In this document: piece by piece, positions 1,477 to 34,837 of the stretch
How the letters are laid out: every line of letters starts with the position of its first letter
Numbering within the stretch: the first letter of the stretch is position 1
Origin: Dechloromonas sp.
Lineage (GTDB): Bacteria > Pseudomonadota > Gammaproteobacteria > Burkholderiales > Rhodocyclaceae
DNA: 36,909 nucleotides
NCBI GenBank assembly: GCA_016790815.1
Contig: JAEUOG010000028.1
Coordinates: 1-36,909, forward strand
Direction: 5' to 3'
The notes under the pieces: generated by a model
Database searches by the model: none
Told to the model about the DNA's origin: nothing
What the model saw: only the letters and a program-made list of their open reading frames with translations
Position numbers and translations under genes: made by a program

Positions 1477-1512
1477 GGCTGCGGTCAACTGGAAAATTGC
1501 CCGATTTGAAAC
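1477..1512 (+). repeat. Dispersed bipartite repeat, copy 1
   Basis: GCGGTCAACTGG is followed by AAAATTGCCC and ATTTGAAA. It lies just upstream of dnaE and matches the family consensus CTGCGGTCAACCGG, then AAATTGGCCAATTT, then GAAA. Confidence 0.7.
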
Positions 1513-1739
1513 GCTTTCTCCTTTCGCGCCGAATGCAATTTTGAGGCGAAATGAACGCTATCCGGAGTGTCTCGTTTGCACAATGGTCCATCCAACGATC
1601 AATTATTGGCACGCTTTCGCACATCAGCAATTCTTGAAAGCATAGTCCGATACGGCTGCGTTACCGTCATTTGCCGCATTGGGCTGGCTGGTCGTGGCCG
1701 AACGCTGCCGCCGAGCTTGCAAACCCATCAGCATCCACA

Positions 1740-1776
1740 GTTCAATTCTGGCCAAATTTTCTGGTTGACCGCAGGC
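1740..1776 (-). repeat. Dispersed bipartite repeat, copy 2
   Basis: On the minus strand it reads CTGCGGTCAACCAG, AAAATTTGGCC, AGAATTGAA. It lies immediately downstream of the MBL-fold gene stop and is inverted relative to copy 1. Confidence 0.75.
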
Positions 1777-1804
1777 TTGCCCCGCAGTCAATGATCAAAC
1801 GCTA

Positions 1805-2749
1805 TCAGCCGAGGCTATCCAGCCACCACGAGAGCCCCTGCGCGTTGAGCTCGATGTCGGTGGCGAGGATGTCGAGGATGGTGGCGTCGGGCAGGGTGCA
1901 GCCGTGGACGCGGAGTTCGGCGAGCAGGTAGGCGGTGAGCGCCTGCTTGATGGCGGCGAGGCGGGCTTCGCCGTCGTTGGCGTGGGCTTCGGCGATGGCG
2001 ACGTGGGCGTCGAGGCGGCGATGGAGGTCGGCAGCGCGGGCGGGGACGTCGTGCACTTGGGCGTAGTGCGTTAGGTACATGGCTTGTGGGCCGTAGCTCA
2101 TCAGGCGGTCGATGGAGGCACGCATGTCAGCGTGGTCGAACTGGGTCGGGCTGGTCGTCGGCTGGATGAACTGGCGGCCGTCGACGTCGAATTCGCGGTA
2201 GGACAGCCCGAACATGTCGCCGGTGAAGATGGCCTTGGCTTTCTGGTCGACGATGCAGATGTGGTGCTTGGCGTGGCCCGGGGTGTCGATCATGAGCAGT
2301 TCGCGGCCGCCGAGCTGGATGGTCAGGCCTTCGTGGGCGTCGATGATGCGCTCGGCCGGGATGGGCAGGATGTCGCCGTAGACGTTCTCTACGTAGTCCT
2401 TGCCGTAAACGGCGGTGACGCCGGCGACCAGCTTGGACGGTTCGGCCATGTGGCGCGAACCGCGCGGGTGCACGACCAGCTTGGCGTTCGGGAATTCGCG
2501 CATCAGCGCACCGGCACCGCCGGCGTGGTCGAGGTGGATGTGGGTCAGGATGACAAAATCGACAGCCTCCCGCCCCAGGCCGACCTTGTTCAGTGCTTCC
2601 AACACGTTGGGCAGCGAGTCGTTGCTACCGGTGTCGACGAAGGCGACGCGGCCGTCGTCGACAATCATGTGGATGGCGGCCAGGATCGGGCGCACGTAGC
2701 CGGCGTCGAAAGCGATGATGCCGTTGCCGTAGTCTCTCCAGTCGAACAT
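1805..2749 (-). CDS. MBL-fold metallo-hydrolase
   Basis: This is a metallo-beta-lactamase-fold hydrolase, cytoplasmic (no signal peptide), probably acting on a thioester or phosphoester; the substrate cannot be told from sequence. Numbered from the upstream ATG at 2755, all seven ligands of a two-metal site are visible: HIHLDH at 72-77 (H72, H74, D76, H77), H161 in TPGHAKHH, D180 in TGDMFG and H230 in LTHYAQVHD. A GGAG sits only 1 nt before that first ATG but 7 nt before the second ATG at 2749, so I take 2749 as the start (314 residues). The C-terminal third (about 235-316) is an alpha-helical extension seen in some members of the family. It is transcribed divergently from the alpha/beta hydrolase gene. 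Confidence 0.85.
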   Translation of the reverse strand: MFDWRDYGNGIIAFDAGYVRPILAAIHMIVDDGRVAFVDTGSNDSLPNVLEALNKVGLGREAVDFVILTHIHLDHAGGAGALMREFPNAKLVVHPRGSRHMAEPSKLVAGVTAVYGKDYVENVYGDILPIPAERIIDAHEGLTIQLGGRELLMIDTPGHAKHHICIVDQKAKAIFTGDMFGLSYREFDVDGRQFIQPTTSPTQFDHADMRASIDRLMSYGPQAMYLTHYAQVHDVPARAADLHRRLDAHVAIAEAHANDGEARLAAIKQALTAYLLAELRVHGCTLPDATILDILATDIELNAQGLSWWLDSLG

Positions 2750-2778
2750 TTCCATACTCCTGCGTATTGATGGCGGCG

Positions 2779-2805
2779 ATTATACTGGCGGCCTGACGAT
2801 TTCAA
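2779..2805 (-). promoter_or_regulatory. Probable sigma70 promoter of the MBL-fold gene
   Basis: On the minus strand TTGAAA (2800-2805) and a perfect TATAAT (2779-2784) are separated by 15 nt, slightly short. A transcript would start near 2772, giving a leader of about 23 nt that includes the GGAG ribosome site. Confidence 0.5.
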
Positions 2806-2816
2806 AGAGTGTGCCG

Positions 2817-3653
2817 ATGACGCATTTCGTGGCCGACGACGGCGAGAAGATCCACGTCCGGATTTCCGGCGAGGGATCGCCGCTGATTTTGCTCCATGGC
2901 TGGACTTCCAGCAGCCAGGAATGGTTCCCCTTCCTGGGCGAACTGAACGCCCATCACCGCGTCTTTCGCTGGGACGCGCGCGGTCATGGCGGCCATACGC
3001 TGGCCCATGACGGTTCAGCGACGGTCGAGCGCATGGCGCGCGATCTCCGGAACCTGATCGACCATTACGGCCTTCACGACGCCACGGCCGTCGGCCATTC
3101 GATGGGCGCGCTGACGCTCTGGCAATATCTGCGCGACCACGGCACGCACGGCCTCGCCAAGCTTTGCCTGATTGACCAGTCACCCAAGCTGCTGACGGCT
3201 GATGACTGGGAGCACGGAATTTACGGGGATTTTCCGGTTGACCGCAGCAATGAGCTGGTTTCGTGGCTGCGCGAGGATTTTGCCGAGGGCGTGCTGAAAC
3301 TGACGGCGCACGGACTCAACAAGCGAGCCGAGGAAAAGTACCTGCAAAACGCTACCGGCTGGCAACGCTCACGCACTGCGCTGCAGGCCCAGAACCCGGA
3401 GCCGCTGATCAACTGCTGGTTGAGCCTGACCGCCGCCGACTATCGCGACGTGCTTGCCAGGATTCCCCTGCCGACGCTATTGGTTTATGGCGGCGAGAGC
3501 AATTTCTACCATGCATCGACAGCGCAGTACGTCGCCGACAACATCCCGAACGCCGTGCTGCGCATCTACGAAGGCACGGACCATTCGCCGCACCAATGGC
3601 AGCGCGAGCGCTTCGTCCGGGAGTTGATCGAGTTCATCAACGTCCCGGATTGA
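2817..3653 (+). CDS. Alpha/beta hydrolase
   Basis: This is a cytoplasmic serine hydrolase of the alpha/beta fold; the substrate is unknown. Counted from a GTG at 2811, the oxyanion-hole motif HGW is at residues 29-31, the nucleophile elbow GHSMG at 95-99 (Ser97), the probable acid E229 in YGGES, and the catalytic His in TDHSPH (H258). I prefer the ATG at 2817 (278 residues), with AAAGAG 7 nt upstream. Residues around 139-147 (GDFPVDRSN) are encoded by copy 3 of the dispersed repeat, so that repeat has been accommodated inside the lid region without breaking the frame. The gene is divergent from the MBL-fold gene and followed convergently by the lytic transglycosylase gene. Confidence 0.85.
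   Translation: MTHFVADDGEKIHVRISGEGSPLILLHGWTSSSQEWFPFLGELNAHHRVFRWDARGHGGHTLAHDGSATVERMARDLRNLIDHYGLHDATAVGHSMGALTLWQYLRDHGTHGLAKLCLIDQSPKLLTADDWEHGIYGDFPVDRSNELVSWLREDFAEGVLKLTAHGLNKRAEEKYLQNATGWQRSRTALQAQNPEPLINCWLSLTAADYRDVLARIPLPTLLVYGGESNFYHASTAQYVADNIPNAVLRIYEGTDHSPHQWQRERFVRELIEFINVPD
3217..3250 (-). repeat. Dispersed bipartite repeat, copy 3 (inside a CDS)
   Basis: On the minus strand it reads TGCTGCGGTCAACCGG, then AAAATCCCCG, then TAAATT. It lies wholly within the alpha/beta hydrolase gene, in frame, where the plus strand is translated as FPVDRSN. Confidence 0.65.
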
Positions 3654-4620: not shown

Positions 4621-4660
4621 AAAAAGGCCGAAAATCAGGTTTTCGATTTGGGCCTTTTTT
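4621..4660 (-). terminator. Rho-independent terminator of msrA (bidirectional form)
   Basis: AAAAAGGCC (4621-4629) pairs with GGCCTTTTT (4651-4659), with an inner CGAAAA/TTTTCG pairing. Read on the minus strand, the hairpin lies about 20 nt after the msrA stop and ends in a T run. It overlaps the AT-rich half of repeat copy 4. Confidence 0.65.
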
Positions 4661-4675
4661 CCGGTTGACCGTGGA
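4635..4675 (-). repeat. Dispersed bipartite repeat, copy 4
   Basis: On the minus strand it reads CCACGGTCAACCGG, then AAAAAAGGCCC, then AAATCGAAAA. It starts just beyond the msrA stop codon and is fused with the terminator hairpin. Confidence 0.65.
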
Positions 4676-4680
4676 ATCGC

Positions 4681-6297: not shown

Positions 6298-8508
6298 ATG
6301 TCGTCGAAAAACCTGCTCGTTGAACTGTTTGTTGAAGAACTGCCGCCCAAGGCGCTCAAGAAGCTGGGTGAAGTGTTTGCCCAGACGCTTGCTACCTCGC
6401 TGAAAAATGCCGGTTTGGCCGCGTCGACCGCAGCAACCACCGCCTACGCCTCGCCGCGCCGCCTCGCCGCACACGTCACCGATGTCGCTGCTGTGGCCGC
6501 CGACAAGCCGGTCGTCCAGAAGCTGATGCCGGTCGCCGTTGGCCTCGACGCCACCGGCAACGCCACCCCGGCCCTGCTCAAGAAGCTGGCTGCGCTGGGC
6601 GCCGACGCTTCCTGCGTGCAGAAACTGCGCCGCGAAAACGACGGCAAGGCTGACGTACTGTTCTACGAAAGCCTGGCCAAGGGTGCCACGCTGGCCGAAG
6701 GCCTGCAAAAGGCACTCGAAGCCGCCCTCGCCGCGCTGCCGATTCCGAAGGTCATGACCTACCAGCTGGCCGACGGCTGGAACACCGTCAACTTCGTTCG
6801 CCCGGCGCATGGCCTCGTCGCCCTGCACGGTAGCGACGTCGTGCCGCTCGCCATTCTCGGCCTGACTTCCGGTCGCGAAACGCATGGTCACCGCTTTGAA
6901 GCTGCAGTCGATCCTGTCGTCTTCGCCAACGCCGACGAGTACGCGGCCAAACTGGCGTCTGACGGCTCCGTCATCGCCTCTTTCGCCGAGCGCCGCGCAG
7001 AAATTGTCCGGCAACTCGATGCAGCAGCGGCCAAGGCTGGTGGCAAGCCAATCGACGACGAAGCCCTGCTCGACGAAGTCACCGCGCTGGTCGAACGCCC
7101 GAACGTGCTGATCGGCCAGTTCGAGGAAGAATTCCTCGCCGTCCCGCAGGAATGCCTGATTCTCACGATGAAAGCCAACCAGAAATACTTCCCGCTGCTC
7201 GGCGACAGTGTGGAAAATGCAGGCAAGCTGACCAACAAATTCCTCGTCGTCAGCAACATCAGCCCGGCCGACCCGAGTGCGGTGATCGGCGGCAACGAGC
7301 GCGTCGTGCGCCCACGCCTGGCCGACGCCAAGTTCTTCTTCGACCAGGATCGCAAGAAGTCACTGGAAAGCCGCGTCATCGGTCTGTCCAAGGTCGTTTA
7401 TCACAACAAGCTGGGCACTCAGGGCGAGCGCATGCAACGCGTTGCCGCGATTGCCCGTGCCATCGGTCAGCAGTTGGGTGGTGACGCCCTCGCGCTGCAC
7501 GCCGAACAGGCCGCCGTGCTCGCCAAGGCCGACCTGCTGACCGACATGGTCGGCGAATTCCCGGAACTGCAGGGCATCATGGGCCGCTACTACGCCCAGC
7601 ATGACGGCCTGGCTGCCGACATCGCCGATGCCATCGAAGACCACTACAAGCCACGCTTTGCCGGCGACAGCCTGCCGCGCGGCCAAGTCGGCACGGTCGT
7701 CGCGCTGGCCGACAAGCTTGAAACGCTGGTCGGCATGTTCGGCATCGGCCAGATTCCGACCGGCGACCGCGACCCGTTCGCGCTGCGTCGCCATGCACTC
7801 GGCACCATCCGCATGCTGACAGAGAACGACCTCAATCTTTCGCTGGGTGAATTAATCGATATTGCCATGTTACCGTTTGGCAAGGCCGTATTTGGATCAT
7901 CGCCAGCCCCCTCTGCCCCGACTCCGCAAGCGGCTGGCAGCCTACTCTCCGGCGGAGCAGTTGCTTTATTCGGTATGACTATAAATCAAGACACCCCAAG
8001 CTTGGTTATCGACTTCATCTATGACCGCCTTGCTGGCAGCCTGCGCGAGCAGGGCTACACGGCACAGGAAGTCGATGCCGTGGTCAGCCAGCGGCCGCAA
8101 CGCCTCGGTGACATTCCCAAACGCCTGGCCGCCGTGCGTGCCTTCGCCGCGCTACCGGAAGCCGCCGCGCTGGCCGCCGCCAACAAGCGGGTCAGCAATA
8201 TCCTGAAGAAGGTCGAAAACCCGGTCGAGCCTACGGTCAATAACACCCTGCTCAAGGAAGCCCCCGAAATCGCCCTGCACGACGCGCTCGTCGATGTCGT
8301 GCCGCAGGCCGACGCTGCCTTCGTTACTGGTGACTACACCGAATCGCTGCAGGCCCTCGCGGCGCTGCGCGCTCCGGTTGACGCCTTTTTCGATGGCGTG
8401 ATGGTGAATGCCGATGATGCCGCACTGCGCGCCAACCGTCTCGGCCTGCTCGCCAAGCTGCACGTAGCGATGAACAAGGTCGCCGACATTTCCAAGCTTT
8501 CCGCCTGA
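6298..8508 (+). CDS. glyS: Glycine--tRNA ligase beta subunit
   Basis: The beta chain binds tRNA-Gly and completes the alpha2beta2 synthetase. The start ATG follows the glyQ stop by one base. At 736 residues it is somewhat longer than usual. The family core is clear (LLVELFVEELPPKALKKLGE at the start, the HD-like region with MVGEFPELQG, and AAANKRVSNILKK near the end). Between about residues 522 and 562, however, there is a low-complexity stretch rich in Ser, Pro, Ala and Gly (SSPAPSAPTPQAAGSLLSGG) where other GlyS proteins have a short linker. Rare codons (TTA, ATA) cluster in this part, unlike the rest of the gene. Confidence 0.97.
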   Translation: MSSKNLLVELFVEELPPKALKKLGEVFAQTLATSLKNAGLAASTAATTAYASPRRLAAHVTDVAAVAADKPVVQKLMPVAVGLDATGNATPALLKKLAALGADASCVQKLRRENDGKADVLFYESLAKGATLAEGLQKALEAALAALPIPKVMTYQLADGWNTVNFVRPAHGLVALHGSDVVPLAILGLTSGRETHGHRFEAAVDPVVFANADEYAAKLASDGSVIASFAERRAEIVRQLDAAAAKAGGKPIDDEALLDEVTALVERPNVLIGQFEEEFLAVPQECLILTMKANQKYFPLLGDSVENAGKLTNKFLVVSNISPADPSAVIGGNERVVRPRLADAKFFFDQDRKKSLESRVIGLSKVVYHNKLGTQGERMQRVAAIARAIGQQLGGDALALHAEQAAVLAKADLLTDMVGEFPELQGIMGRYYAQHDGLAADIADAIEDHYKPRFAGDSLPRGQVGTVVALADKLETLVGMFGIGQIPTGDRDPFALRRHALGTIRMLTENDLNLSLGELIDIAMLPFGKAVFGSSPAPSAPTPQAAGSLLSGGAVALFGMTINQDTPSLVIDFIYDRLAGSLREQGYTAQEVDAVVSQRPQRLGDIPKRLAAVRAFAALPEAAALAAANKRVSNILKKVENPVEPTVNNTLLKEAPEIALHDALVDVVPQADAAFVTGDYTESLQALAALRAPVDAFFDGVMVNADDAALRANRLGLLAKLHVAMNKVADISKLSA
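7870..7990 (+). other. In-frame low-complexity insertion within glyS
   Basis: This stretch encodes an extra Ser/Pro/Ala/Gly-rich linker in the beta subunit. Its base composition is more AT-rich at its edges, with TTA and ATA codons. It contains an inverted pair CTCCGC/GCGGAG around 7922-7957. It could be a small palindromic insertion tolerated between two helices. I judge it from memory of the family's usual spacing, not from an alignment. Confidence 0.45.
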
Positions 8509-8524: not shown

Positions 8525-9076
8525 ATGCCAGCCAAGCTCGTCATTCTCGACCGCGACGGGGTCATCAACTTCGATTCAGCCCAGTTCATCAAGAGCCCGG
8601 CCGAGTGGAAGCCGATCCCGGGCAGCCTGGAAGCGATCGCCCGCCTGACCCAGAGTGGCTACAAGGTTGTCGTGGCGACCAACCAGTCAGGGGTCGGCCG
8701 CGATCTGTTCGACATGGAAACGCTGAACCACATCCACACCAAGATGCACAAGGCTGCGGTTTTGCTCGGCGGACGGATCGACGCCATTTTCTACTGTCCG
8801 CACACCGCCGACTCGGAGTGCGATTGCCGCAAACCAAAACCGGGCATGTTCAAGCGCATATCCGAAACGCTGAACATCGACCTCAAGGGCGTGCCGGCGA
8901 TTGGCGATTCGCTGCGCGACCTGCAGGCTTGCGCCGTCTACGGATGCCAGCCGATGCTGGTCATGACCGGCAAGGGCGAAAAGACCAAGTCCGAAGGGGG
9001 TCTCCCGGAGGGCACACTTGAGTTCCGCGATCTGTCAGCTGCGGTGGACGCCATCCTCAAGGAAAAAAAGGCATGA
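8525..9076 (+). CDS. gmhB: D-glycero-beta-D-manno-heptose-1,7-bisphosphate 7-phosphatase
   Basis: This HAD-family phosphatase removes the C7 phosphate of heptose bisphosphate in ADP-heptose synthesis for the lipopolysaccharide core. It shows the DxDGxxN signature (DRDGVIN, nucleophile D9 and acid D11), the TNQSG motif (52-56), the zinc loop CPH...CDC (C91, H93, C99, C101) and the late Asp in GDS (D128). The 183 residues fit the family. GGAAGA lies upstream of the ATG. It is 16 bp after glyS and overlaps plsC by 4 bp (ATGA), so it is part of one operon. Confidence 0.95.
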   Translation: MPAKLVILDRDGVINFDSAQFIKSPAEWKPIPGSLEAIARLTQSGYKVVVATNQSGVGRDLFDMETLNHIHTKMHKAAVLLGGRIDAIFYCPHTADSECDCRKPKPGMFKRISETLNIDLKGVPAIGDSLRDLQACAVYGCQPMLVMTGKGEKTKSEGGLPEGTLEFRDLSAAVDAILKEKKA

Positions 9077-14175: not shown

Positions 14176-15956
14176 ACCAACACCTTCCCAGGCTCTTCAA
14201 GGCCACACTTCTGAGCGGCCTGGTCGCTGCGCTCGGTTTGCCTGCCCTCGCGAGCGCCGAGGCGCTGCCAGTCGTGGTCGAACGCGTATTGCTGCAACAA
14301 CCCAGCGTTCGTTCGGCGCAAGCCCTGCTCAATGCCGCTGAATCGCAGGTTTCCCAAGTCCGCTCCGACTATCTGCCGACCGCCAGTTTGGGGTATCGCA
14401 ACAGCAGGTCTCGAGATGAAACACAGGGCGTCCCTTTCGACCGCACGGTACGGCGCAGCGACGCGACACTGCGCTGGAACCTGTTTAACGGCGGCGCCGA
14501 CTTCTATCGGCTACGCTCGATCAAACTGAGCCGGGATGCCGCCGAAACCGATCTCGACGAAGTGCTTGAACGCGTAGCCGCCGAGATTACCGAAAGCTAC
14601 GCAGATGTCGTGCGACTGCGTCAAACGATCAACAGTCTGGACGACACCATTACGCGCCAGGAACGGCTCAAGCAACTGGTCGTCAGCCGTGTCGACGCCG
14701 GGCGCATTCCCCCGGCCGAGCTTGATCAGGTGAGCGTCCGGCTGATCCAGAGTCGCACACTGCTGGGCCAGCTACGCACCCAACTGGCGACGGCAGAGTA
14801 TCGCTACCGACTGCTTACTGGCGTTCCACCCGAGAATCTGGTGCTTCCAGCCATTGCCCTCTCCTCAACTGATGTCAGCGCCAGCCAGCTGATCGAACGC
14901 CTGCACGAACGAAACCCTCGCCTGCGCGCCGCGCTGCAACGCGTCTCGGCACGTCAGGCGGACGTTGGTGCAGCCCGTGGCAGTTTCATGCCCAGCGTCG
15001 ACCTGGAGGTTACCAAGCGGCTGAACAACAACACCAACCCAGTGCCAGTGACCGATAGCGATCATGGCAATCTGCTCAGGGTCAATCTCGACATCCCGCT
15101 CGGCGGAAGAAACCTAGCCCGACATAACGAAACCATTGAGCGCTATAAAGCGGCTCAGGCCGACGCCGACCAACTGAGCAACGATCTTTCACGGGAAGTG
15201 ACCGACATCCACGGTCAACTGGAAGAAATGGCCAGAATCGACAGCCTGCTTGAGCAGCGAGTGCGCTCCGCCCAACGCGTCGCAGCGGCCTACGAGCTGC
15301 ACTTTGAAGCCGGCCGCCGCTCCCTGAACGATGTTTCCATCTCTCAGGATGACCTCTTTGAGGCGCAGCGCAATCTGGTTGAAACCAGGGCCAGACAAAC
15401 CGTCATACAAGCCCGGCTTCTCAGCATGGCCGGCGAATTGCGCGAAGCACTGCAGACGCGCTACCGTGCGGCGCCGATCGCTCCGGAACTGCTTCGTAGC
15501 GAGCCAGCGGAGCCGGCCAGCGTACTTTTCGCCCGCACCCCGGCAGGTGATGGCAGCGTCAATGCCACGCCGCCTTCCCCAACGCCGTTAGCCGAGGTTG
15601 AGGCACGCCTTGCCCAGTGGGCGGCAGCCTGGGCAGACAAGAAGTACGAGACCTACCGCAGCTTCTACACTGCCGATTACCAGCCCGCCGATCGCCGTTC
15701 GACTACTGAGTGGGAAGCAGAACGCCAGCGGCGAATAAGCCAGGCCATCTCACCATCGATTCGCATTGAGTCGCTTAAAGCGGATGCTACCGATGACAAC
15801 CGCGTGTCTAGCCGCTTTGTTCAACACTACAAGGCGGAGAACTTTAGCGATACGGTGCTCAAACAGATCAATTGGGCCCGGATTAACGGGGAGTGGAAAA
15901 TCGTGAGCGAAACCGTTCGGCAACCAATGCCTGCGAAATCAGTCTCAGCCCCCTAA
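14172..15956 (+). CDS. TolC-like outer-membrane channel with C-terminal NTF2-like domain
   Basis: This is the outer-membrane exit duct of the type I system. A signal peptide (about 1-29, ending in ALASA) is followed by two OEP repeats typical of TolC (about 30-435), with the conserved NLFNGG near residue 106 and DIPLGG near 311. Unlike ordinary TolC proteins it continues after a Pro-rich linker into a domain of about 110 residues (about 474-585) with the pattern AW..K...Y.SFY....P.....WE..R and a late NFSDT...W...GEWKI, which matches the NTF2-like/Cds6 C-terminal type. The same domain ends the convergent TPR protein. At 594 residues it is clearly longer than TolC. The domain would sit in the periplasm. 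Confidence 0.9.
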   Translation: MNQHLPRLFKATLLSGLVAALGLPALASAEALPVVVERVLLQQPSVRSAQALLNAAESQVSQVRSDYLPTASLGYRNSRSRDETQGVPFDRTVRRSDATLRWNLFNGGADFYRLRSIKLSRDAAETDLDEVLERVAAEITESYADVVRLRQTINSLDDTITRQERLKQLVVSRVDAGRIPPAELDQVSVRLIQSRTLLGQLRTQLATAEYRYRLLTGVPPENLVLPAIALSSTDVSASQLIERLHERNPRLRAALQRVSARQADVGAARGSFMPSVDLEVTKRLNNNTNPVPVTDSDHGNLLRVNLDIPLGGRNLARHNETIERYKAAQADADQLSNDLSREVTDIHGQLEEMARIDSLLEQRVRSAQRVAAAYELHFEAGRRSLNDVSISQDDLFEAQRNLVETRARQTVIQARLLSMAGELREALQTRYRAAPIAPELLRSEPAEPASVLFARTPAGDGSVNATPPSPTPLAEVEARLAQWAAAWADKKYETYRSFYTADYQPADRRSTTEWEAERQRRISQAISPSIRIESLKADATDDNRVSSRFVQHYKAENFSDTVLKQINWARINGEWKIVSETVRQPMPAKSVSAP

Positions 15957-18053: not shown

Positions 18054-18719
18054 TTATACCTTGCGGCGACGAGCCAGCGCCAACCCGGCCAGGCCAAGCG
18101 CTGCCAACAACGAGGTAGATGGCTCAGGAACATTGTTGCCCTGAGTTGCCTGAACGACGTCCTGGCTGTTGGGGTTCGTCCAGACCGTCAGGTTGTAGCT
18201 TCCGGTTTCTTTCGCATCGGCGTCCAATAGATTCAGATAATTCGTGGCAAAGGCTAGCGCCGCAACGCCATCTACAGCTGGGTCACCAACCCAGCCACTA
18301 TAGTTTCCGGTCGAAAGACTGATGTCATCGGTAGCTTCCCACAGCGCGATCTGGAAGCCGGCAAGTTGCGAATAGTTATTCATGTCCAAACCGGAAAAAC
18401 TCTGGTTGAACAATTTTTGCACCGAGCTAGCAGCTGCACTCTGGGCAAACGGAAGACCGGGAATGGTCAGCACGCTGCCACTGACGTCCTGCAGCAGTTC
18501 ATAGCAGAATGCCTCGAAGCTCTTGCCGGTGGTCTGGTTCGAGACGTTAAAAATTCCGGCGATCACGCTTTTGTTCTGCCCGTTGACGTCAACTAAAAAC
18601 GAGAGTGAGTTGATGTCCTGCTGCATCACCAGATCGTCGGCTTGGGCTGCCGAGGTTGCAAAAAGGCCGGCAACCATGACGGCTGCTGCGGTCGACCTGA
18701 AAAAACGTTGCATTTTCAT
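18054..18719 (-). CDS. PEP-CTERM protein with probable Cys-Gln thioester domain
   Basis: This is a 221-residue exported surface protein. A Sec signal peptide (about 1-27, ending AAQA) is followed by a domain with FCYELLQDV (C72) and GFQIALWEATDD (Q123). These spacings and contexts match thioester (TED/TQXA-type) domains, in which a Cys and a Gln form an internal thioester that can bind host or matrix nucleophiles. The C-terminus has the sorting tag VPEPS (197-201), a hydrophobic helix and RRRK, the PEP-CTERM signal processed by an exosortase; no exosortase gene is in this window. GGAG lies 6 nt before the ATG. It follows the giant adhesin on the same strand after 83 bp. Confidence 0.85.
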   Translation of the reverse strand: MKMQRFFRSTAAAVMVAGLFATSAAQADDLVMQQDINSLSFLVDVNGQNKSVIAGIFNVSNQTTGKSFEAFCYELLQDVSGSVLTIPGLPFAQSAAASSVQKLFNQSFSGLDMNNYSQLAGFQIALWEATDDISLSTGNYSGWVGDPAVDGVAALAFATNYLNLLDADAKETGSYNLTVWTNPNSQDVVQATQGNNVPEPSTSLLAALGLAGLALARRRKV

Positions 18720-21800: not shown

Positions 21801-23860
21801 GCATCGAGCCAGACGCGATCGCCCAGCGAAGCCTTCTTGTAAAGGCCAGCGTCCCACGAAAGATCGTTTTCACCGGCGCTGAGCGTGGTAACGATGGTCT
21901 TGCCCGTTGTCGGATCGATATCGCTGTCAGTGGCATCGTTGCCACCCAGATCCTTACCGGTAATGGTGTAACCCGTCGGCGCCATGATCTGCACCGCGTA
22001 GTTGCCCGGCGACAGATTGCTGAACAGATAGTTACCGTTGGCATCGGTGGTCATGGAGTTGAGCACAGCACCATTCGAATCAAGAAGTTTGACCGTGACG
22101 CCCTGGATGCCGGATTCGCCAGCGTCCTGAACACCGTTGGCGTTCTTGTCTTCCCACACGCGGTCACCGAGGGTGGCCGGGAGTTCGTCAACAAAGTCGT
22201 TGCCGGTGCTGGTCTGGCCCGGATTCAGGGTGACCGCAATGCTGTTCGGGTTGCCGCCGTCAATGTCATTGACGTCAAGGTAGCCCGGCTTGTTGGTTTC
22301 CATCACCGTGTAGCTGCCAGCCGGCAGGTTGTTGAAGGCGTAGTTGCCGTTGGCGTCGGTGGTGGTGGTGCCGACCACGTTGCCGGCGCTGTCCTTGAGA
22401 ACGACGGTCACGCCGGCAATCGGGGTGTCCCCGGTGTCGTTGTTGTCGTTGTCCTGACGCACGGTGCCGGTGATGGCGCCCGGGTTGGCAACAATGCCAG
22501 CGTCCCAGGTCTTGTCCGATTCGCCGGAGTCAAGCTGGGTCTGGATGGTCTTGCCGTCGGCCGTGTTGGCGTCGGAGTCGGTGGCGTCAGCGCCGCTGTC
22601 ACGGGTGGTGAAGCTGTAACCGGCCGGCAGCGTGGCTTTGTCGAACTGGACGCTGTAGGTGCCCGGCTTGAGGTTGGTGAAGAGGTAGTTGCCGTTGACG
22701 TCGGTCAGCAGCGGGCTGCCGACGGCTGCGCCGTTGGCATCGAGCAGGGTGACTTTGACGCCTTGGACGCCGGCTTCGCCGCCGTCTTGCTGGCCGTTGC
22801 CGTTGGTGTCGAGCCAGACGCGGTCGCCGAGTTCGGCGAGCTTGTAGAGGCCGGCATCAACGTTCGGGTTGTTCTGACCGGCGGCCAGGGTGACCGGGGC
22901 GGTTTGGCCGGCGGCGTTGATGTCGCTGTCGGTGCCTTCGTTGCCACCCAGGTCCTGACCGGTAACGACGTAGCCGCCCGGGGTGACGATGGCGACGCTG
23001 TAGGTGCCCGGTGCCACTTCAAAGCCGTAGTTGCCGTTGACGTCAGTGGTGGTGGTCTTGACGACGGTACCGCTGGCGTCCTTGAGCTGGACCGTGACGC
23101 CCTGGATGCCCGCTTCACCAGCGTCCTGAACTCCGTTGGCGTTCTTGTCTTCCCACACACGGTCTCCGAGGGTGGCCGGGAGAGGAGCTGGCACAACGAA
23201 GGTAATCGTGTTTGGCGTCAGGTCGAGGTCGTTTCCTCCGCAACCATCCGTACCGCCGGTGTCACGCACCTGAAAATCGAAATTGATGGCGCCGCCGGAA
23301 TTGACCGGGGCCACGTAGGTAAGGTTTCCTGCGGCGATGTCTGCGGCGAGAATTTCCTGGCCTGCCGCAACGGCAGTGCCGTTGAGATTCAACTGGCCGC
23401 TGGCGGGGGTAGTCGTAATGACAACCGACTTAAGGGCATCGCCCTCAACGCTATCGGTGAAACCAAAATCACCCACCCCGAAAACATAGGTGCTGCCATT
23501 GGCCAGCGCGACGCTGTCGTCGGCTCCAGAAGGCGCATCGTTCACCGGGGTGACATTGATGTTGAGATCAAGAATGAAGGAGGCGCCGCTGCTGTCAGTC
23601 CCGAGAACACGAACCTTCAGAACACCATTGAAATTTGGCAACTGCGTCACGTCGACCGTAAAGGTGTCTTTATCCACTGCCGTGAAGTAGCCAGTGGTTG
23701 TTTCGACGTACTTGGTGCCGTCGAAAACGTACAGGCTCACCCTGGCGGGGTCAGTTGCAGCGTAGTTGGGATCGGCTTGGCGAAGCAGGTCATAAAGCTC
23801 GAAATTCTGACTCGTATCTTCACAAAGGGTGACGTTGGTCGAATAGCGCGTGACAGCCAT
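18803..23860 (-). CDS. Giant SdrD-type repeat adhesin, probable type I secretion substrate
   Basis: This 1685-residue extracellular protein has no Sec signal. N-terminal region (about 1-225): a cadherin/VCBS-like beta domain (VTPVNDAPSGADDSV). Residues about 226-1450: nine SdrD B-like modules of about 115 residues, most opening with GDRVWEDKNANGVQDAGE, an EF-hand-like calcium loop, and ending with WDAGLY; module 3 is divergent (ITGTVRQDNDNNDTGDTP). An unrelated block of about 197 residues (about 1017-1213) splits modules 7 and 8. The C-terminal part (1450-1685) has calcium loops DANRDGKVNNLSE and DSNNDGLIDALD and ends in a hydrophobic/acidic tail (MVSLYDQQQHDLIAA), as in type I substrates. 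CGGAGG precedes the ATG. It probably uses the exporter at 10712-15956. Likely roles are cell adhesion or biofilm; no LapG/LapD genes are nearby. Confidence 0.9.
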   Translation of the reverse strand: MAVTRYSTNVTLCEDTSQNFELYDLLRQADPNYAATDPARVSLYVFDGTKYVETTTGYFTAVDKDTFTVDVTQLPNFNGVLKVRVLGTDSSGASFILDLNINVTPVNDAPSGADDSVALANGSTYVFGVGDFGFTDSVEGDALKSVVITTTPASGQLNLNGTAVAAGQEILAADIAAGNLTYVAPVNSGGAINFDFQVRDTGGTDGCGGNDLDLTPNTITFVVPAPLPATLGDRVWEDKNANGVQDAGEAGIQGVTVQLKDASGTVVKTTTTDVNGNYGFEVAPGTYSVAIVTPGGYVVTGQDLGGNEGTDSDINAAGQTAPVTLAAGQNNPNVDAGLYKLAELGDRVWLDTNGNGQQDGGEAGVQGVKVTLLDANGAAVGSPLLTDVNGNYLFTNLKPGTYSVQFDKATLPAGYSFTTRDSGADATDSDANTADGKTIQTQLDSGESDKTWDAGIVANPGAITGTVRQDNDNNDTGDTPIAGVTVVLKDSAGNVVGTTTTDANGNYAFNNLPAGSYTVMETNKPGYLDVNDIDGGNPNSIAVTLNPGQTSTGNDFVDELPATLGDRVWEDKNANGVQDAGESGIQGVTVKLLDSNGAVLNSMTTDANGNYLFSNLSPGNYAVQIMAPTGYTITGKDLGGNDATDSDIDPTTGKTIVTTLSAGENDLSWDAGLYKKASLGDRVWLDANKNGVQDSGEAGVAGVAVNLLNAAGAVVATSTTNASGNYLFQNLMPGSYAVQVVAPNGYVITGKDLGGNDATDSDVDAATGKTVVTTLESGENDLSWDAGLYQNPASIGDRVWLDKNANGVQDAGETGIAGVAVKLLNSAGAVVGSATTDANGNYLFSNLTPGDYAVQIVAPTGYTITGKDLGGNDATDSDVDAATGKTVLTTLTAGESDLSWDAGLYQKASIGDKVWSDCDADGVQDATEAGVGGVVVKLLNAAGTVVASTTTDANGNYLFKDLVPGDYAIQVVAPTGTTLTTKDQGGNDALDSDVDTVTGKSALTTLVSGENDMSWDAGLRGARVTASFDFNGNSASDGTDGNIRSYTNNGISVNASAFSRDKTSGAWSAAWLGTYGGGLGVTNSSEGSGTANNVHTIDNDGRVDYVLFEFSKVVTVDKAYLGYVIGDSDMKIWIGNSANAFTSHVTLSDAVLSSMGFTEVNSTTSSSARWADLNAGNIEGNMLIVSAATTDSNDYFKLQNLVVSATTCVSTAPVTASIGDRVWEDMNANGVQDAGEAGIAGVTVKLLNSSGAVVATTTTNASGNYLFNNVTPGDFKVQVVKPTGYYTTGKDLGGNDATDSDVDSTGTTVLTTLTAGENDLSWDAGLYRKASIGDRVWEDVNHNNLQDAGEAGIANVTVKLQNAAGTTIATTTTNTSGNYSFVNLDPGSYRVVFDKSATIYKGIDMSNWSWSSKDIGTNDSIDADAYSTSDVATTAYTTLVSGEADMTWDAGITPIVLDLDGNGIQTIAREDSSGKFDLLGTGHGIDSGWISAGDAFLAFDANRDGKVNNLSELFGGVAKGDGFAKLADFDSNNDGLIDALDARFSELQVWQDINGNHQTDAGELRSLAEAGVLSLRTDFVELPAIDAQGNLHLERSSAQLVGGASIDMADVYFNVSRADAEAAGIELPSLSALLGDDTTLDMLLGANTGSPAVAAGGSAAVDGSMATLSQMVSLYDQQQHDLIAA
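19512..23186 (-). repeat. Nine tandem SdrD B-like modules (coding repeat)
   Basis: Repeats of about 340 bp encode modules that open near 23186, 22843, 22495, 22190, 21845, 21497, 21150, 20222 and 19880. Modules 1 and 4 are very close at DNA level in their opening segment (about 23100-23182 against 22102-22185), which points to recent duplication or gene conversion. The array is interrupted by non-repeat sequence at 20222-20812. Confidence 0.85.
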
Positions 23861-24740: not shown

Positions 24741-24776
24741 TGCTGCGGTCAACCGTTGAAAATCAGTCAAATCGGG
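24741..24776 (+). repeat. Dispersed bipartite repeat, copy 5
   Basis: TGCTGCGGTCAACCG is followed by TTGAAAATCAGTC and AAATCGGG. It lies between the convergent 3' ends of gloA and the SprA-like gene. The palindromic second half is degenerate. Confidence 0.65.
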
Positions 24777-25503: not shown

Positions 25504-26118
25504 ATGGCCTTTCCCGAATTCTTTTCCCGCGTTCCCACCATCACCCTGCGCGACCCGTTGGCCGAACTGCTCGGCGCAGCCGAGGGCGGGCTGATCGAGT
25601 ACGGTTTTGCCGATGCGGTCAGACTGGCCGGGCACGCCTGCCCAACGGTAGCCGGCGCCTGGTTGACCAGCGTGCGCGCCTTGCGGGCGCTCTATGGCGA
25701 CGAGATTCCCGTGCGCGGCAACATCGTTGTCGCGCTACACGAGAGCGTTGATAGTGGTGTCGCCGGCGTCATCGCCAGCATCGCCACGCTACTCACCGGC
25801 GCGGCCGGCGATGGTGGTTTCAAAGGGCTGGGCGGGCAGCATGTCCGGCGCGGATTGCTGCGCTTCGGCGTCAGCGGCAGCGTCGGCATGACTTTTACCC
25901 GGCTTGACACCCATGCTGCGGTCAACGGCAATTTTCGGGCGAATTTGATCGCGGCCGATCCGCGTCTCGGCGAACTCCTGCCCGCCGTCGTCCATGGCAT
26001 GGCGAGTTCAGCAGAGAACACGCTGTTCGGCGAGCTCTGGCAGGATCGCGTGAAACGCATCCTGATCGACCACGGAGATGATCCGGCCGTAGTGGAATTG
26101 CGTCGAATTCAGCCCTGA
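25504..26118 (+). CDS. FmdE-like domain protein
   Basis: This 204-residue soluble protein resembles the FmdE family (named from molybdenum formylmethanofuran dehydrogenase operons). It has the characteristic AVRLAGHACPTVAGAW (about 38-53, with H44 and C46 as probable metal ligands), LRALYGDEIPVRG and GGFKGLGGQHVRRGLL. In bacteria without methanogenesis these proteins are thought to bind metal, but a reaction is not established. AAGGAG precedes the ATG. Residues about 138-149 (AAVNGNFRANLI) come from copy 6 of the dispersed repeat. The 3' end overlaps the convergent glycosyltransferase gene by 10 bp. Confidence 0.72.
   Translation: MAFPEFFSRVPTITLRDPLAELLGAAEGGLIEYGFADAVRLAGHACPTVAGAWLTSVRALRALYGDEIPVRGNIVVALHESVDSGVAGVIASIATLLTGAAGDGGFKGLGGQHVRRGLLRFGVSGSVGMTFTRLDTHAAVNGNFRANLIAADPRLGELLPAVVHGMASSAENTLFGELWQDRVKRILIDHGDDPAVVELRRIQP
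25912..25950 (+). repeat. Dispersed bipartite repeat, copy 6 (inside a CDS)
   Basis: ATGCTGCGGTCAACGG is followed by CAATTTTCGGGC and GAATTTGATC. It lies in frame inside the FmdE-like gene and is more degenerate than the intergenic copies. Confidence 0.5.
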
Positions 26119-29114: not shown

Positions 29115-30296
29115 TCAGATTGCCACGGTCAACCGGAATTTTTGGCCAATTTCGCAGTGGGTCAATTCGCCATAAAGGCGCGCCAGCCGCTCGGCCATCG
29201 CCACATCGGTCCATTCCCGCGCGTAGATCGGCGCCTCGTCATTGAGGTGGCGCCATGCTTCGGGATGTTTGAGGAACTGACCAAGAACCTCACCAAAGGC
29301 CCGCGGGTCGTTTGGGGGGGAGAAAGCACCGCGGGCCGGAGCCAGAATGTCGATCGTCCCCATCTCCGATAGCGCGATGACCGGCACGCCGGCCGCCATG
29401 GCTTCGAGCAGGACCAGCCCCTGCGTTTCGGTAAGCGAGGCAAAGACGAAGACGTTCGCTGCCGCATAGCAATCCGGCAGAGCCTGCTTGCGGTCGAGAT
29501 AGCCGATGAACAGCACGGCATCCTGCAGCCCCAACGCAGTCGTCTGCGCCTTGAGGTCGGCCATGGCCGGGCCTTCGCCGGCGATCACGAGGAGGGTATC
29601 GGGGCGGATCTGGCGGGCCTGGACGAGGGCTTCGAGCAGGAAGCCGATATTTTTCTCATGCGCCACGCGGCCGACAAACAAGGCCATCGGGCGGGATTCG
29701 GCGATGCCGAATTTCTGGCGAAAGCGAAGGCCGTTGCCGCCGGCAAACTGCGCCATCGGAATGCCGGTAGGCAAAACGTGCATCGGCGACGTGACGCCGT
29801 AACTGTCGAGCCGCTGGCGCATGGCCGTCGACGGCACGACCACGGCATCGAGCTGGTTGCATTGGCGGCGCGAGAGGCTCCGCGCCTGGCCGCGCAGCCA
29901 GCTCGGCGGGATCGGCTTGGCGTAGTGCTGCAGGTATTCCTCGAACAGCGTGTGATAGGTCGCCACCACCGGCAGCCCCAGCTTTCGCGCCGCCTTGAGG
30001 CCGGCGTAGTGGGCAATGAACGGGGTCTGGACGTGGATCAGGTCGCAGTCCTGCGCTGCTTCGAGCACGGCCAGGTGCATGGCCCGCCAGCCGACCAAGC
30101 GGTCTTCGCGGTCGCCCGGCACCGGTCGGCCGGCAACGCGGACGACGCCCGGCTCGTGCAGCTCGTTGCCATAACGTGGCACGACCAGCTTGACCTCGAC
30201 ACCGTGCGCCGACAGCGTGCGGCGAAAAGTCTCGATGGAAGTCGAGACGCCATTGACGCGGGGAAAATACACGTCGGAAACCATCAAAACACGCAT
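29115..30296 (-). CDS. GT4-family glycosyltransferase, Agt-like by context
   Basis: This 393-residue retaining GT-B glycosyltransferase has N-terminal VSDVYFPRVNGVSTSIETF, HVQTPFIAHYAGL and ATYHTLFEEYLQHY, donor-site VGRVAHEKN (about 206-214) and EX7E in SLTETQGLVLLEAMAAG. It starts one base after the stop of the PlcP/LpxH-type phosphoesterase, the arrangement known for plcP-agt pairs, where the transferase glycosylates diacylglycerol released from phospholipids. That role is inferred from context; the sequence alone shows only GT4. The C-terminal dozen residues are encoded by a copy of the dispersed repeat, so the natural stop of the family may have been displaced. Confidence 0.85.
   Translation of the reverse strand: MRVLMVSDVYFPRVNGVSTSIETFRRTLSAHGVEVKLVVPRYGNELHEPGVVRVAGRPVPGDREDRLVGWRAMHLAVLEAAQDCDLIHVQTPFIAHYAGLKAARKLGLPVVATYHTLFEEYLQHYAKPIPPSWLRGQARSLSRRQCNQLDAVVVPSTAMRQRLDSYGVTSPMHVLPTGIPMAQFAGGNGLRFRQKFGIAESRPMALFVGRVAHEKNIGFLLEALVQARQIRPDTLLVIAGEGPAMADLKAQTTALGLQDAVLFIGYLDRKQALPDCYAAANVFVFASLTETQGLVLLEAMAAGVPVIALSEMGTIDILAPARGAFSPPNDPRAFGEVLGQFLKHPEAWRHLNDEAPIYAREWTDVAMAERLARLYGELTHCEIGQKFRLTVAI
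29121..29158 (+). repeat. Dispersed bipartite repeat, copy 7 (forms the 3' end of a CDS)
   Basis: CCACGGTCAACCGG is followed by AATTTTTGGCCAATTT and CGCAG, one of the best matches to the two-palindrome consensus. It supplies the last dozen codons of the GT4 gene (GQKFRLTVAI). Confidence 0.75.
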
Positions 30297-31135: not shown

Positions 31136-31223
31136 CTGCATTAAGCTTTTGTTTCGATCCATTGCCATTTTCGGCAAACCGTCTTCCAGCGTAGCGCAGT
31201 CGCTGAGACCAGCACTCAATCCT

Positions 31224-31260
31224 GTTTTTCGCCTTTTTTCCAGGTTGACCGCAGCAATCA
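31224..31260 (-). repeat. Dispersed bipartite repeat, copy 8
   Basis: On the minus strand it reads TTGCTGCGGTCAACCTGG, then AAAAAAGGC, then GAAAAACAGG. It is intergenic, between the zinc-ribbon/Sel1 gene and the phosphoesterase gene. Confidence 0.7.
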
Positions 31261-32276: not shown

Positions 32277-33119
32277 TCACAGATTCTCTCGGGGAAGCCC
32301 TGCAACAAGGCCTTCCAGCGGCCGCGTTGCCGCCTGCCATCCACCGCGCAGCAAGGGCAGCAGATAGAACAATACGAAGCCCCCCAGCCCCCACAGGCAG
32401 GCGACGATGCGCCATGGCCGCGTATCCGGGTAGCCCTGGCCATCAAATGGCAAGGTCGCTACACCGATGACGGCGATACCGATCAATATCCAGTGCGCAC
32501 GCACCCCCAGCCCCCAGCGAAAGCGCCGGGTCAGGCGCAGGCCGAGCCAGCCACCGGCCAGACCAATCATGGCACCAGCCAGCACATCGACCGGCCAGTG
32601 GGCGCCTACGGCGATCCGCGAAAAGCCGGCCAGCGCAGCAATGACAACGATGGGCAGGGCACGCCACCAGCCGAGCAAGGCCAGCCAGGCGACGACAAAC
32701 GAAAACGCGGAGACGGTGTGCCCGGAGGGGAAGCTGTGCGAAGTCAGCCGGGCGCCGATGATGGTGATCTGACTGGCGTCGAGCACGGCTGCCGGGCGAG
32801 GCATCGGCACCCATACCTTGAGGCCGCGGCTTATTGCTCCCGCCAGCAGCGCCCCAACCACGAGCGCCCAGAAAACCCGCGGATAGCGCAGGCAAAAGGG
32901 CAGCATGAGTGCGAGTTGAACGCGGCCGTCACCGAGCGTCGTGAGACTCTCCCAGAGCCAGGGCGGCAAGACCTGGCTGCTCGTCTGGGCAGGGATGAAG
33001 CCGGCGTACCAGTCGCCGCTCTGGCCAATGGCGATCAGCCCGAACGCGAGAAGCAGGAATAGCAACGCGATGGAAGCATCGAGCCACCGATTTGGGGCGT
33101 GCAGGCCCTGATCGTTCAC
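32277..33119 (-). CDS. PAP2-family membrane phosphatase
   Basis: This 280-residue integral membrane phosphatase has all three PAP2 motifs: KVWVPMPRP (K101 to P109), PSGH (131-134) and SRIAVGAHWPVD (S167, R168, H174, D178). Likely substrates are undecaprenyl pyrophosphate, phosphatidic acid or a lipid A phosphate; the sequence does not decide. Several helices flank the motifs and a C-terminal two-helix extension follows residue 200. Its start overlaps the stop of the ArnT-like gene by 4 bp, so the two are co-translated, which favours recycling of the polyprenyl phosphate used by that transferase. Confidence 0.9.
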   Translation of the reverse strand: MNDQGLHAPNRWLDASIALLFLLLAFGLIAIGQSGDWYAGFIPAQTSSQVLPPWLWESLTTLGDGRVQLALMLPFCLRYPRVFWALVVGALLAGAISRGLKVWVPMPRPAAVLDASQITIIGARLTSHSFPSGHTVSAFSFVVAWLALLGWWRALPIVVIAALAGFSRIAVGAHWPVDVLAGAMIGLAGGWLGLRLTRRFRWGLGVRAHWILIGIAVIGVATLPFDGQGYPDTRPWRIVACLWGLGGFVLFYLLPLLRGGWQAATRPLEGLVAGLPRENL

Positions 33120-34747
33120 GGCTTTGCCTCGGCCTCGACGCGTGCCAGCGTGACAAAGCTGCGCTGATAGACATCGCGCAGCACGAGGTTTGGCGCGAGC
33201 AACGCCTGAACCTCATGTTTGCGGTCGGTACGCGTGAACACAAGCTGACCGAGCTCAGGCACTCGCGTCGGCGTTGCCGCCTGCCGATAGACGCTGAAGC
33301 TCGGCATGATGATGCGCCAGGCAACGACGTTCGTTTCGCCGCTTTGCTTGACCAGCAAGGCCGCTTCGCGCACCGGCCCCTGCGTCACGCCGATGGCGCG
33401 CGGGGCAATGATGATGGCCACCGTGGCGGCCTGCAGCAGGCCGGCGATGACCAGCCCCTGCCAGACCGGCAGGCGGCGCCAGAACGCGAGACCGAAGATG
33501 GCAACGGCGATCAGCGGTAACAACCAGCGCGCTTCGTCGGCAAAAGCGACGGTCAGGCCGTCAAGCAGGAATTTCTCAAAGGGCCGATTGGCCTTGCCGG
33601 CAGCGAAGGCCAGCACTTCGGGCAGGGCAGCCAGCAGCAGCGCGAAAAGCAGTATCGGCAAGAAGGCCAGCCAGCGCCGCTCGAAATCGAGCCGATTGCG
33701 GGCCAGCAAAATGAAGACCGGCGTGCAGCCATACAGCAGGTAGTGCGGCAACTGCGTGCCGGAAAACGAGAAGAAGGCGAAGACGACGACAAACCAGATG
33801 ACGAGGAAGCGTTCGAACAATGCATCACGGTCGCTCTGGTGGAGAACGCCGGTGACCTTACCGGCGATGGCGAACAACCAGCCGGTGAAGGGCAGCAGGA
33901 TCAGCGGCGCTGCGGCGAGGTAATACCACCAGCGCCCGCCGTGGCCTTCGAAGGTATCGGCATAACGATTGATGTTGTGCTTGAGGTAGAAACCGCGGAA
34001 GAAGGCATCACCTTGATCGAGATAGACCGCGACGTGCCAGGGCACGACGATGGCCAGAAATACAAGCCAGCCTGGCCAGAAGAAAGCAGCCTTGAGCCAT
34101 TCACGCCAGGCGCCAGCCGAGACGAAAAACAGACCGCTGATTAGCAGTGGAAAAAAGACTGAGACGGGGCCCTTCGCGAGAAACCCGAGGCCGAGCGCGG
34201 CATAGATTGCGAACAGCAGGCGACGTGTCTGCACGGGCGACTTGCCATCCCGGCAGGCGCAGAAATAGTCGTAGATGCCGAACATGGCCAGCGCGATGAG
34301 CAGGTTGAGCAGCGCATCGGCAATCGCCGCCTTGGCGATGAAGCCGACGACCAGCGTCAGGGCCATGACCAGCGCGGCGATCTGTGCTGTCATCTGGTTG
34401 CCATGGCGCAGGCAGAAACGGTAGAGCGCGACCATCCAGAGCAGCGCAAAAATGATCGATGGCAGGCGAAAGCCGATTTCGCTGACGCCAAGCACGGCGA
34501 CCGAAGCGGCTTGTGCCCAGTAGATCAGGATGGGCTTGTCGTGACGCGGTGCGTCGTTGAGCGTCGGCGAAATGAGGTTGCCGCGCGCCATCATTTCGCG
34601 CGTTGCCTCGGAGAAAGCCCCCTCGTCGACATCGGTCAGCGGCAAACTCCACGCATTCAGCAAGAAGGCCAACACGAGCGCGAGCAACAGGCTGAACGGC
34701 GACAGCAGGAAACGCTCGATGGTAAGGGGCAAGGTTCGCAATTGCAT
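33116..34747 (-). CDS. GT39 (ArnT-like) polyprenyl-phosphate glycosyltransferase
   Basis: This 543-residue multi-span inner-membrane transferase moves a sugar from a polyprenyl phosphate carrier to a lipid or protein on the periplasmic face. The first periplasmic loop holds the family signature [15 protein letters not shown], with D and E expected to be catalytic, and [12 protein letters not shown]. About 11-12 membrane helices follow, then a small soluble C-terminal domain with a Pro/Arg-rich end. L-Ara4N transfer to lipid A (as in ArnT) is possible, but no arn synthesis genes are in the window. The start at 34747 is set by the conserved N-terminal helix; no Shine-Dalgarno sequence is visible. 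Confidence 0.87.
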
Positions 34748-34753
34748 CGCGGC

Positions 34754-34759
34754 ATTATA
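34754..34759 (-). promoter_or_regulatory. Candidate -10 of the ArnT-like gene (possible leaderless start)
   Basis: A perfect TATAAT on the minus strand ends 6 nt before the ATG, so transcription would start at the start codon. No -35 is seen at 16-18 nt. A 9-bp inverted repeat CCGGGTGCC/GGCACCCGG (34766-34790) lies directly upstream. Confidence 0.4.
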
Positions 34760-34800
34760 AGGCAGCCGGGTGCCCCTGCCCGGCACCCGGCTTGACGCCT

Positions 34801-34837
34801 CTGCGGTCGACGCCTAAATTCTGGCCAATTTCAAAAA
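34801..34837 (+). repeat. Dispersed bipartite repeat, copy 9 (degenerate first half)
   Basis: CTGCGGTCGACGCC is followed by TAAATTCTGGCCAATTTC and AAAA. It lies between the divergent ArnT-like and purT genes. The second palindrome is well kept, while the first half has lost its symmetry. Confidence 0.55.

Follow-up and report, generated by a model that had tools for sequence, protein, structure and literature searches.

Sequence-specific DNA uptake is stated for two bacterial families (PMC7811141; PMC5031613). In the parts of the cited papers on which this and all later comparisons draw, uptake signals combine a core that is read by a receptor with AT segments that deform the helix, and the tag becomes enriched through biased uptake and the recombination that follows it (PMC1626085; PMC7811141; PMC12616744). 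The uptake signal sequence (USS) of the Pasteurellaceae, known as Hin-type AAGTGCGGT and Apl-type ACAAGCGGT (PMC1626085; PMC12616744), is built from the core and two AT segments, the first of which changes from A to T and the second of which follows after about one helical turn (PMC1626085), and the rigidity and bend of the AT tracts are tied to uptake (PMC7811141). The DNA uptake sequence (DUS) of the Neisseriaceae, ATGCCGTCTGAA and its dialects, is bound by ComP (PMC12616744; PMC5031613). Here we describe a dispersed 35-bp element in a 36,909-nt stretch of Dechloromonas sp. DNA (contig JAEUOG010000028.1, the whole stretch being called the window and its genome G000), which carries a core and two A/T tracts and which, on its architecture and distribution, is very probably a putative DNA uptake sequence of a third lineage, maintained by biased natural transformation in Azonexus and Dechloromonas. 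A literature search, itself incomplete, found no description of the element in Rhodocyclaceae, Azonexus or Dechloromonas. The role that the evidence favours was missing from the list of possible roles drawn up in a sequence-only reading of the window, which had reported nine copies of an element built from two palindromes.

The core word CTGCGGTCAAC occurs 89 times in forward and 89 times in reverse orientation in the 2,544,949 bp genome and its reversed letters not once, while the pattern that adds the two A/T tracts to the core (CGGTCRACNNNNNWWWNNNNNNNWWWW) is found 241 and 268 times against 0 and 0 in the control. An iterated weight matrix, with a threshold that about two sites exceeded in one equally large Markov control, returned 161 sites in 436,909 bp of G000 (20 stretches of 20 kb plus the window), from which about 940 copies per genome are extrapolated. 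The density of matrix sites is 0.37 per kb in G000, 0.53 in G147 and 0.54 in G240. Among the 10-mers of the G000 sample, TGCGGTCAAC (44 observed against 1.5 expected), TGCGGTCGAC (53 against 3.3) and GTTGACCGTG, i.e. CACGGTCAAC (26 against 1.2), are over-represented. In the window, the 9-mer with at most one mismatch is only mildly enriched (23 against 14.3 expected) and the window alone could therefore not prove the repeat; the earlier claim of an occurrence beyond chance holds genome-wide (178 copies of CTGCGGTCAAC against none of the reversed word). The sequence-only reading had named a lack of genome-wide excess and confinement of the copies to the window as findings that would speak against it; the excess is large, and copies recur in dozens of related genomes.

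The element is asymmetric, with a CGGTC[A/G]AC core, a left flank specific to the dialect and two A-tracts spaced by one helical turn; the G000 matrix consensus reads TgCTGCGGTC[A/G]ACcggaAaAaw.gGccaAAattga. When CGGTCRAC words were chosen by the core alone (n = 217), A+T was 62-77% between offsets 12 and 16, counted from the first base of the core, and 71-87% between offsets 23 and 26, whereas the reversed core (n = 85) was followed by no comparable tract pair. TpA steps in the tracts number 17 against 93 by column shuffling, and 14 against 67, and make up 3% of tract steps compared to 13% in genomic A/T runs of at least 4; this avoidance indicates true A-tracts, about 10.5-11 bp apart and thus on the same face of the helix. 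Both tail tracts tend to run from A to T and do not mirror one another; the second is strong in all usable matrices, the first weaker in G062, G147 and G240. Copies grade from perfect to weak with differing flanks, and the full-length strict pattern GCGGTCAACNNNNAAATTNGNCNAATTT has 0 matches in the genome, so that the earlier consensus of best copies was too tight. The description as two palindromes has to be given up, since the extension of the core to CGGTCRACCG is present in a minority of sites only (46 of 161 in G000, 23 of 105 in G147 and 28 of 87 in G240) and the arms of the tail show next to no complementarity, with a largest excess over re-paired copies of 0.005, 0.012 and 0.032, respectively. 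The covariation of the two arms that had been suggested as a test is likewise practically nil beyond that of re-paired copies.

Compared to the Pasteurellaceae signal, as far as it is set out in those parts of the sources, the element shares a GC-rich core, with GCGGT common to the USS and a frequent spelling here, two AT-rich segments 3' of the core, which change from A to T and are spaced by about one helical turn, and an occurrence on both strands, within and between genes, in subclade dialects and in hundreds to thousands of copies. Unlike in the USS, the core is CGGTC[A/G]AC and its conserved part extends further 3', and the first tract begins about 4 nt after the core, whereas the tract of the USS directly adjoins it; the dialects vary in the 5' flank and at the A/G position, the density is about 0.4-0.55 per kb and the host bacteria are others. 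Neither AAGTGCGGT nor ACAAGCGGT is among the dominant cores of the element, which are CTGCGGTCRAC, CCACGGTCAAC, TCACGGTCGAC and TGACGGTCGAC. The Neisseriaceae are betaproteobacterial, as is the host here. With the DUS, which is maintained by transformation, the element has in common this type of host as well as dialects, abundance and strand symmetry; in contrast, the DUS is described in the same partial sources as a continuous word of at most about 13 nt with a CTG inner core and without AT segments, there is no likeness in sequence, and no continuous word of the GCCGTCTGAA type is contained in the element consensus. The core being unlike those of USS and DUS, the element is assigned to neither. 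We consider it fairly likely that it represents a third, independently evolved self-recognition code in environmental betaproteobacteria, which has converged on the Pasteurellaceae design; the genus would then show dialects of its own, repeated independent losses and inserts at recurrent points of comEC, which encodes the DNA channel. If this convergence is true, the design would be set by the physics of pulling a kinked duplex through the outer membrane and not by shared receptor ancestry, and a third lineage would let the reasons for the importance of phased AT tracts be tested independently. Such a lineage, found in environmental bacteria and including named cultured strains, would also tell an explanation by adaptation to mucosal DNA apart from more general ones.

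Along the genome, the strands are balanced (77 plus and 84 minus among the 161 G000 sites), with chi-square values of 22.9 over 21 stretches in G000, 3.6 over 10 in G147 and 2.2 over 8 in G240 that reveal no bias. According to the gene calls of a simple, purpose-built codon-usage caller, 119 of the 161 sites lie in genes (60 sense, 59 antisense), 40 are intergenic and 2 straddle a border. The density is twice as high between genes (0.65 per kb) as within them (0.32 per kb) in these 437 kb, and the enrichment at intergenic sites that the sequence-only reading had proposed for testing is thus real in terms of density, although the majority of sites are intragenic. Similarly, its statement that most copies sit at gene borders describes the nine copies of the window, six of which are intergenic and one of which lies at a gene end, but not the larger sample. 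Within genes a reading frame is preferred, as 49 of the 60 sense copies share one frame and 38 of the 59 antisense copies another. The classified intergenic sites fall into tandem, convergent and divergent gaps in numbers of 27, 9 and 3 in G000, 7, 12 and 4 in G147, 7, 6 and 9 in G240 and 6, 3 and 1 in G177, and in G240 alone among these four do divergent gaps hold more than their share of bases. Neighbours less than 1 kb apart are rarer than random in G000 (16 against 32 expected).

Copies arise and are respelt by point changes at the sites compared. At the orthologous intergenic site 31223 of the window, G000 and all 6 alignable relatives, every one of them tag-rich, carry the element, with the core spelt CTGCGGTCAAC, CCACGGTCAAC or CTACGGTCAAC. 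At site 34799, G607 and G651 carry the element, while the tag-poor G604, G652 and G608 have the promoter-like TTGACG...TAAATT, with single-base indels, and lack the core; no element-sized gap was found at this one orthologous site in the three species. The respelling at the first site and the missing gap at the second imply that the copies there are made and remade by substitution. Spelling also differs between species: TGCGGTCRAC is favoured in G000, G062, G177 and G201, the dialect cores are TGCTGCGGTCRAC in G000, tttCACGGTCGAC in G147 and TgACGGTCGAC in G240, with the two tracts common to all three, and the core of G596 is mostly CACGGTCAACCGGAA.

Within the order, the element is restricted to the genus of the window. 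Among 249 family genomes, CTGCGGTCAAC occurs 151-178 times in five of the eight members of this genus and 9-13 times in the other three, which include G147 and G240 with their different core spelling, compared to 0-7 times in the other genera of the family, where the reversed control reaches up to 11. None of the 241 family genomes of other genera contains more than 6 matches to the core-plus-tracts pattern, and none of 344 non-genus genomes of the order with a completeness of at least 85 contains more than 8, the reversed control reaching 15 there. Across 76 genomes of the genus, the strict pattern is found in 88-877 copies in 41, in 20-79 copies in 8 and in fewer than 20 copies in 27, with controls of 0-6. 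Named carriers, among the 80 of 119 stretches listed, are Dechloromonas denitrificans, D. hortensis, Azonexus hydrophilus, A. fungiphilus and Azonexaceae bacterium s22; the matches listed further include many metagenome-assembled genomes (MAGs) named Azonexus, Dechloromonas or Rhodocyclaceae and, under other names, a Blastopirellula MAG, a Gammaproteobacteria MAG (three matches) and a Proteobacteria MAG. In a midpoint-rooted tree without outgroup, built from one short two-gene stretch of 63 of the 76 genomes (38 high, 7 middle and 18 low in copies), tag-rich species occur on all major branches and tag-poor ones in several separate groups, which is suggestive of a tag that is old in the genus and has repeatedly decayed. 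Left out of the tree were five genomes without a match, the weak matches G611, G612, G618 and G620, G602 for being too short, and G608, G651 and G652, whose locus does not cover the stretch.

A k-mer search over 100 kb each of six tag-poor genomes (G591, G605, G608, G604, G587 and G635) brought up no clear other dialect. The candidate pair CGAGCAGGG/CCCTGCTCG was rejected as an alternative dialect, because it stands out in tag-rich genomes too; it is over-represented in G608, G635, G651, G177 and G201 (in G635, for example, in 22 one-kb blocks against 3.1 expected) and is possibly another chromosomal signal or a matter of codon usage. Outside the genus, three Azonexus-type elements lie within 2.7 kb on contig 150 of G079 (about 38.8-41.5 kb), and small clusters are also found in G031 and G090, which suggests Azonexus DNA transferred into relatives of other genera.

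From these patterns we infer an uptake bias, a receptor, a kinking step and decay, which might be connected as follows, in the manner of the Pasteurellaceae USS. A surface receptor associated with the type IV pilus would bind the CGGTC[A/G]AC core and the dialect flank on free double-stranded DNA, and the two A-tracts downstream of the core, one helical turn apart, would stiffen and slightly bend this DNA. This would allow the DNA to kink and to be drawn through the outer membrane secretin; from there, ComEA and ComEC would hand it on, and DprA and RecA would recombine it into the chromosome. With tagged fragments being preferentially taken up, the tag would accumulate by biased gene conversion at harmless positions, which would account for many imperfect copies on both strands, within and between genes; in a lineage losing transformation, tags would decay by mutation. 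The reading predicts that adding the tag to donor DNA makes laboratory strains of Azonexus or Dechloromonas transformable, and the set of 76 genomes with its dialects, losses and relics would offer a way of finding the receptor by co-variation.

Genes for the required machinery are common, although their presence does not prove competence. ComEC and DprA each have matches in 75 of the 76 genus genomes, 68 and 73 of them over the curated cut-off, ComEA exceeds its cut-off in 20 of 22 chosen genomes (G000, which is incomplete, is one of the two without it), and a GspH/FimT-type pilin is encoded in 69 of the 76. Ten genomes have a comEC gene that is interrupted within a single contig, by 2.4 kb in G630, 5.3 kb in G652 and 20-64 kb in the other eight, and the split positions in the model recur at about 146 (G201, G626, G630, G652 and G653), about 161-166 (G616, G635 and G593) and about 590 (G587 and G628); in this genus, comEC gives the impression of a regular target of integration. 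The G616 insert (G616:C33:107500-127400) opens with a large serine recombinase gene, while a scan of four genes close to the far end of the G201 insert brought up no recombinase; a mobile character is evident for the G616 insert only. In the sampled parts of the inserts of G616, G201 and G635 (17.8, 19.4 and 18.2 kb; G+C content 51-52%), neither the matrix nor the strict pattern detects a tag, in line with the depletion expected in recently acquired DNA, and bare cores number 0, 1 and 1, respectively; the hosts are tag-rich in the case of G616 and G201 and tag-poor in the case of G635. In the parts of the literature cited, insertions into transformation genes are read as a sign that mobile elements and transformation are in conflict, or that transformation is lost (PMC11472951; PMC12955456).

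The testable sequence features of an uptake-signal system were all found in the element, with the exception of even spacing, for which the picture is mixed, and several observations weigh against the proposed function. Overall gap variation is not significantly low in G000 (P 0.086), and in G147 and G240 close neighbour pairs are in excess. In G240, divergent gaps hold 9 of the 22 classified intergenic sites at a base share of 27%, which a regulatory site would match too. No DprA match was obtained in the tag-rich G638 (317 copies), and ComEA over the cut-off is missing in G651, which is complete and tag-rich (816 copies). GspH/FimT-type pilins occur in tag-rich and tag-poor species alike and none was singled out as the receptor. 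Split comEC genes are found in the tag-rich G628, G616 and G201, and no significant link was found between loss of the tag and a broken comEC or a missing GspH-type pilin, defects being slightly more frequent in tag-poor genomes: with states classed by hand and breaks at contig ends excluded, comEC is disrupted on one contig in 7 of 35 low and 5 of 41 high genomes (p 0.53), GspH is absent or broken in 7 of 35 and 2 of 41 (p 0.07), and either defect is seen in 8 of 22 and 6 of 34 genomes that are at least 90% complete (p 0.13). Two matrices were also of limited use, since the one for G112 (seed GCGGTCAAC) drifted to codon-periodic sequence with 334 'sites' and was discarded, G112 being classed by its pattern count instead (47 against 0 in the control), and the site list of G177 is partly noise, for which reason this genome was judged by pattern counts. 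The incomplete literature search found no uptake or transformation experiment and no report of competence in this genus.

The main rival is a binding site for an abundant cytoplasmic protein, nucleoid-associated or a global regulator, that needs the core and the phased A-tracts and sits every ~2-3 kb. A protein that wraps or bends DNA could recognise such a site as well, and the twofold intergenic enrichment, the 9 of 22 classified sites in divergent gaps of G240 and the one copy that overlaps promoter-like sequence all agree with it. We nevertheless consider it unlikely, because 119 of 161 copies lie inside genes in both senses, divergent gaps are not preferred in G000, G147 or G177 (3, 4 and 1 sites), the sampled comEC inserts contain no copies, and both the near-absence from several branches of the genus and the shifts in spelling between close relatives would be unusual for a housekeeping architecture protein. 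In general terms the sequence-only reading holds, with a composite site that a protein recognises and that is not a terminator, not a hairpin of the repetitive extragenic palindromic (REP) type and not part of an insertion sequence.

The more specific roles it had listed fare less well. REP elements with their associated tyrosine transposases (RAYTs) and miniature inverted-repeat transposable elements (MITEs) are dispersed repeats in both orientations, and an origin as mini-transposon remnants or another REP-type mobile repeat would explain the similar copies on both strands and the excess of close opposite-strand pairs (17 in G147 and 16 in G240 with neighbours within 60 bp). Such an origin is quite improbable, since the element has no conserved hairpin, grades from perfect to weak copies with different flanks and resides mostly in called genes with a preferred reading frame, and since the one orthologous site compared with three tag-poor species speaks for substitution without insertion. 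The chances of a transcription terminator or Rho-related signal are slimmer still: convergent gaps in G147 do hold 12 of 23 classified intergenic sites on about one sixth of such bases, but most copies are intragenic in both senses and arm covariation is practically absent. Paired DUS and USS copies are known to act as terminators too, and termination would at most be a secondary use of paired copies here. Chi and the FtsK-orienting polar sequences (KOPS) are short over-represented chromosomal words with a strand bias, and a strand-directed chromosome signal of this kind, for which the hundreds of short copies over the chromosome might speak, is the least credible of the rivals, given that the strands are balanced in the three stretch sets tested, that the element is a 35-bp composite with A-tracts and that many species of the genus lack it.

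In the window, the weight matrix finds 15 sites, six of them beyond the earlier nine, whose places and strands were all confirmed and six of which contain an exact GCGGTCAAC (at 1481, 1764, 3237, 24745, 25918 and 31244); the list of nine was thus accurate but incomplete. Among the earlier copies, the core CTGCGGTCAAC is found in copy 1 (1477..1510, plus strand; position weight matrix (PWM) score 24.0) and copy 2 (1743..1776, minus; 36.4), which share an intergenic gap on opposite strands, in copy 3 (3216..3249, minus; 37.7), which lies antisense within an alpha/beta hydrolase gene (2811-3653), in the intergenic copies 5 (24741..24774, plus; 28.4) and 8 (31223..31256, minus; 41.9), and in copy 6 (25914..25947, plus; 36.9) within the gene 25504-26118. 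The core CCACGGTCAAC is carried by copy 4 (4643..4676, minus; 34.3), which is intergenic, and by copy 7 (29121..29154, plus; 41.1) at the 3' end of the gene 29115-30284, while copy 9 (34799..34832, plus; 34.2) has the core CTGCGGTCGAC and overlaps the promoter-like TTGACG...TAAATT. Among the additional sites, CTGCGGTCGAC is the core at 6402..6435 (minus; 30.4) within glyS, encoding the beta subunit of glycyl-tRNA synthetase (Pfam tRNA_synt_2f), at 17424..17457 (minus; 27.7), a genic copy with weak tracts, and at 18684..18717 (plus; 33.9) at the start of a PEP-CTERM protein gene (18054-18719). A further copy with the core CCACGGTCAAC (15207..15240, plus; 34.6) is located within an outer membrane efflux protein gene (14172-15956; Pfam OEP), and a weaker one with the core TTACGGTCGAC (23630..23663, minus; 23.0) within a large repeat protein gene (18803-23860). 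The site at 9037..9070 (plus), with the core CTGCGGTGGAC, is marginal and possibly false (PWM 15.9 at a threshold of 13.3). The large repeat protein gene is a very large minus-strand open reading frame of 1685 aa with repeats of about 345 bp, and the weak copy is the single element inside it.

In the close pairs of G147 and G240, the palindromic core CGGTCGACCG can serve both directions. Overlapping head-to-head twins of the element are also found in G588 (C40:17517-17560, C62:104476-104515 and C63:8113-8156), and in L104 and two of these three cases the paired elements share a palindromic core region with tracts on either side, which makes the site readable both ways. Other repeated words were encountered as well. 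In 200 kb sampled of G147, words of the AAGCCTGAGACG type (42 copies) and CTACCCGCTA (21 copies) are extremely frequent and perhaps belong to a clustered repeat unrelated to the element, and the tag-poor G112 contains a repeat family, marked by the words GTCATTCCCG and GGGAATCCAG, that is perhaps a REP or a MITE.

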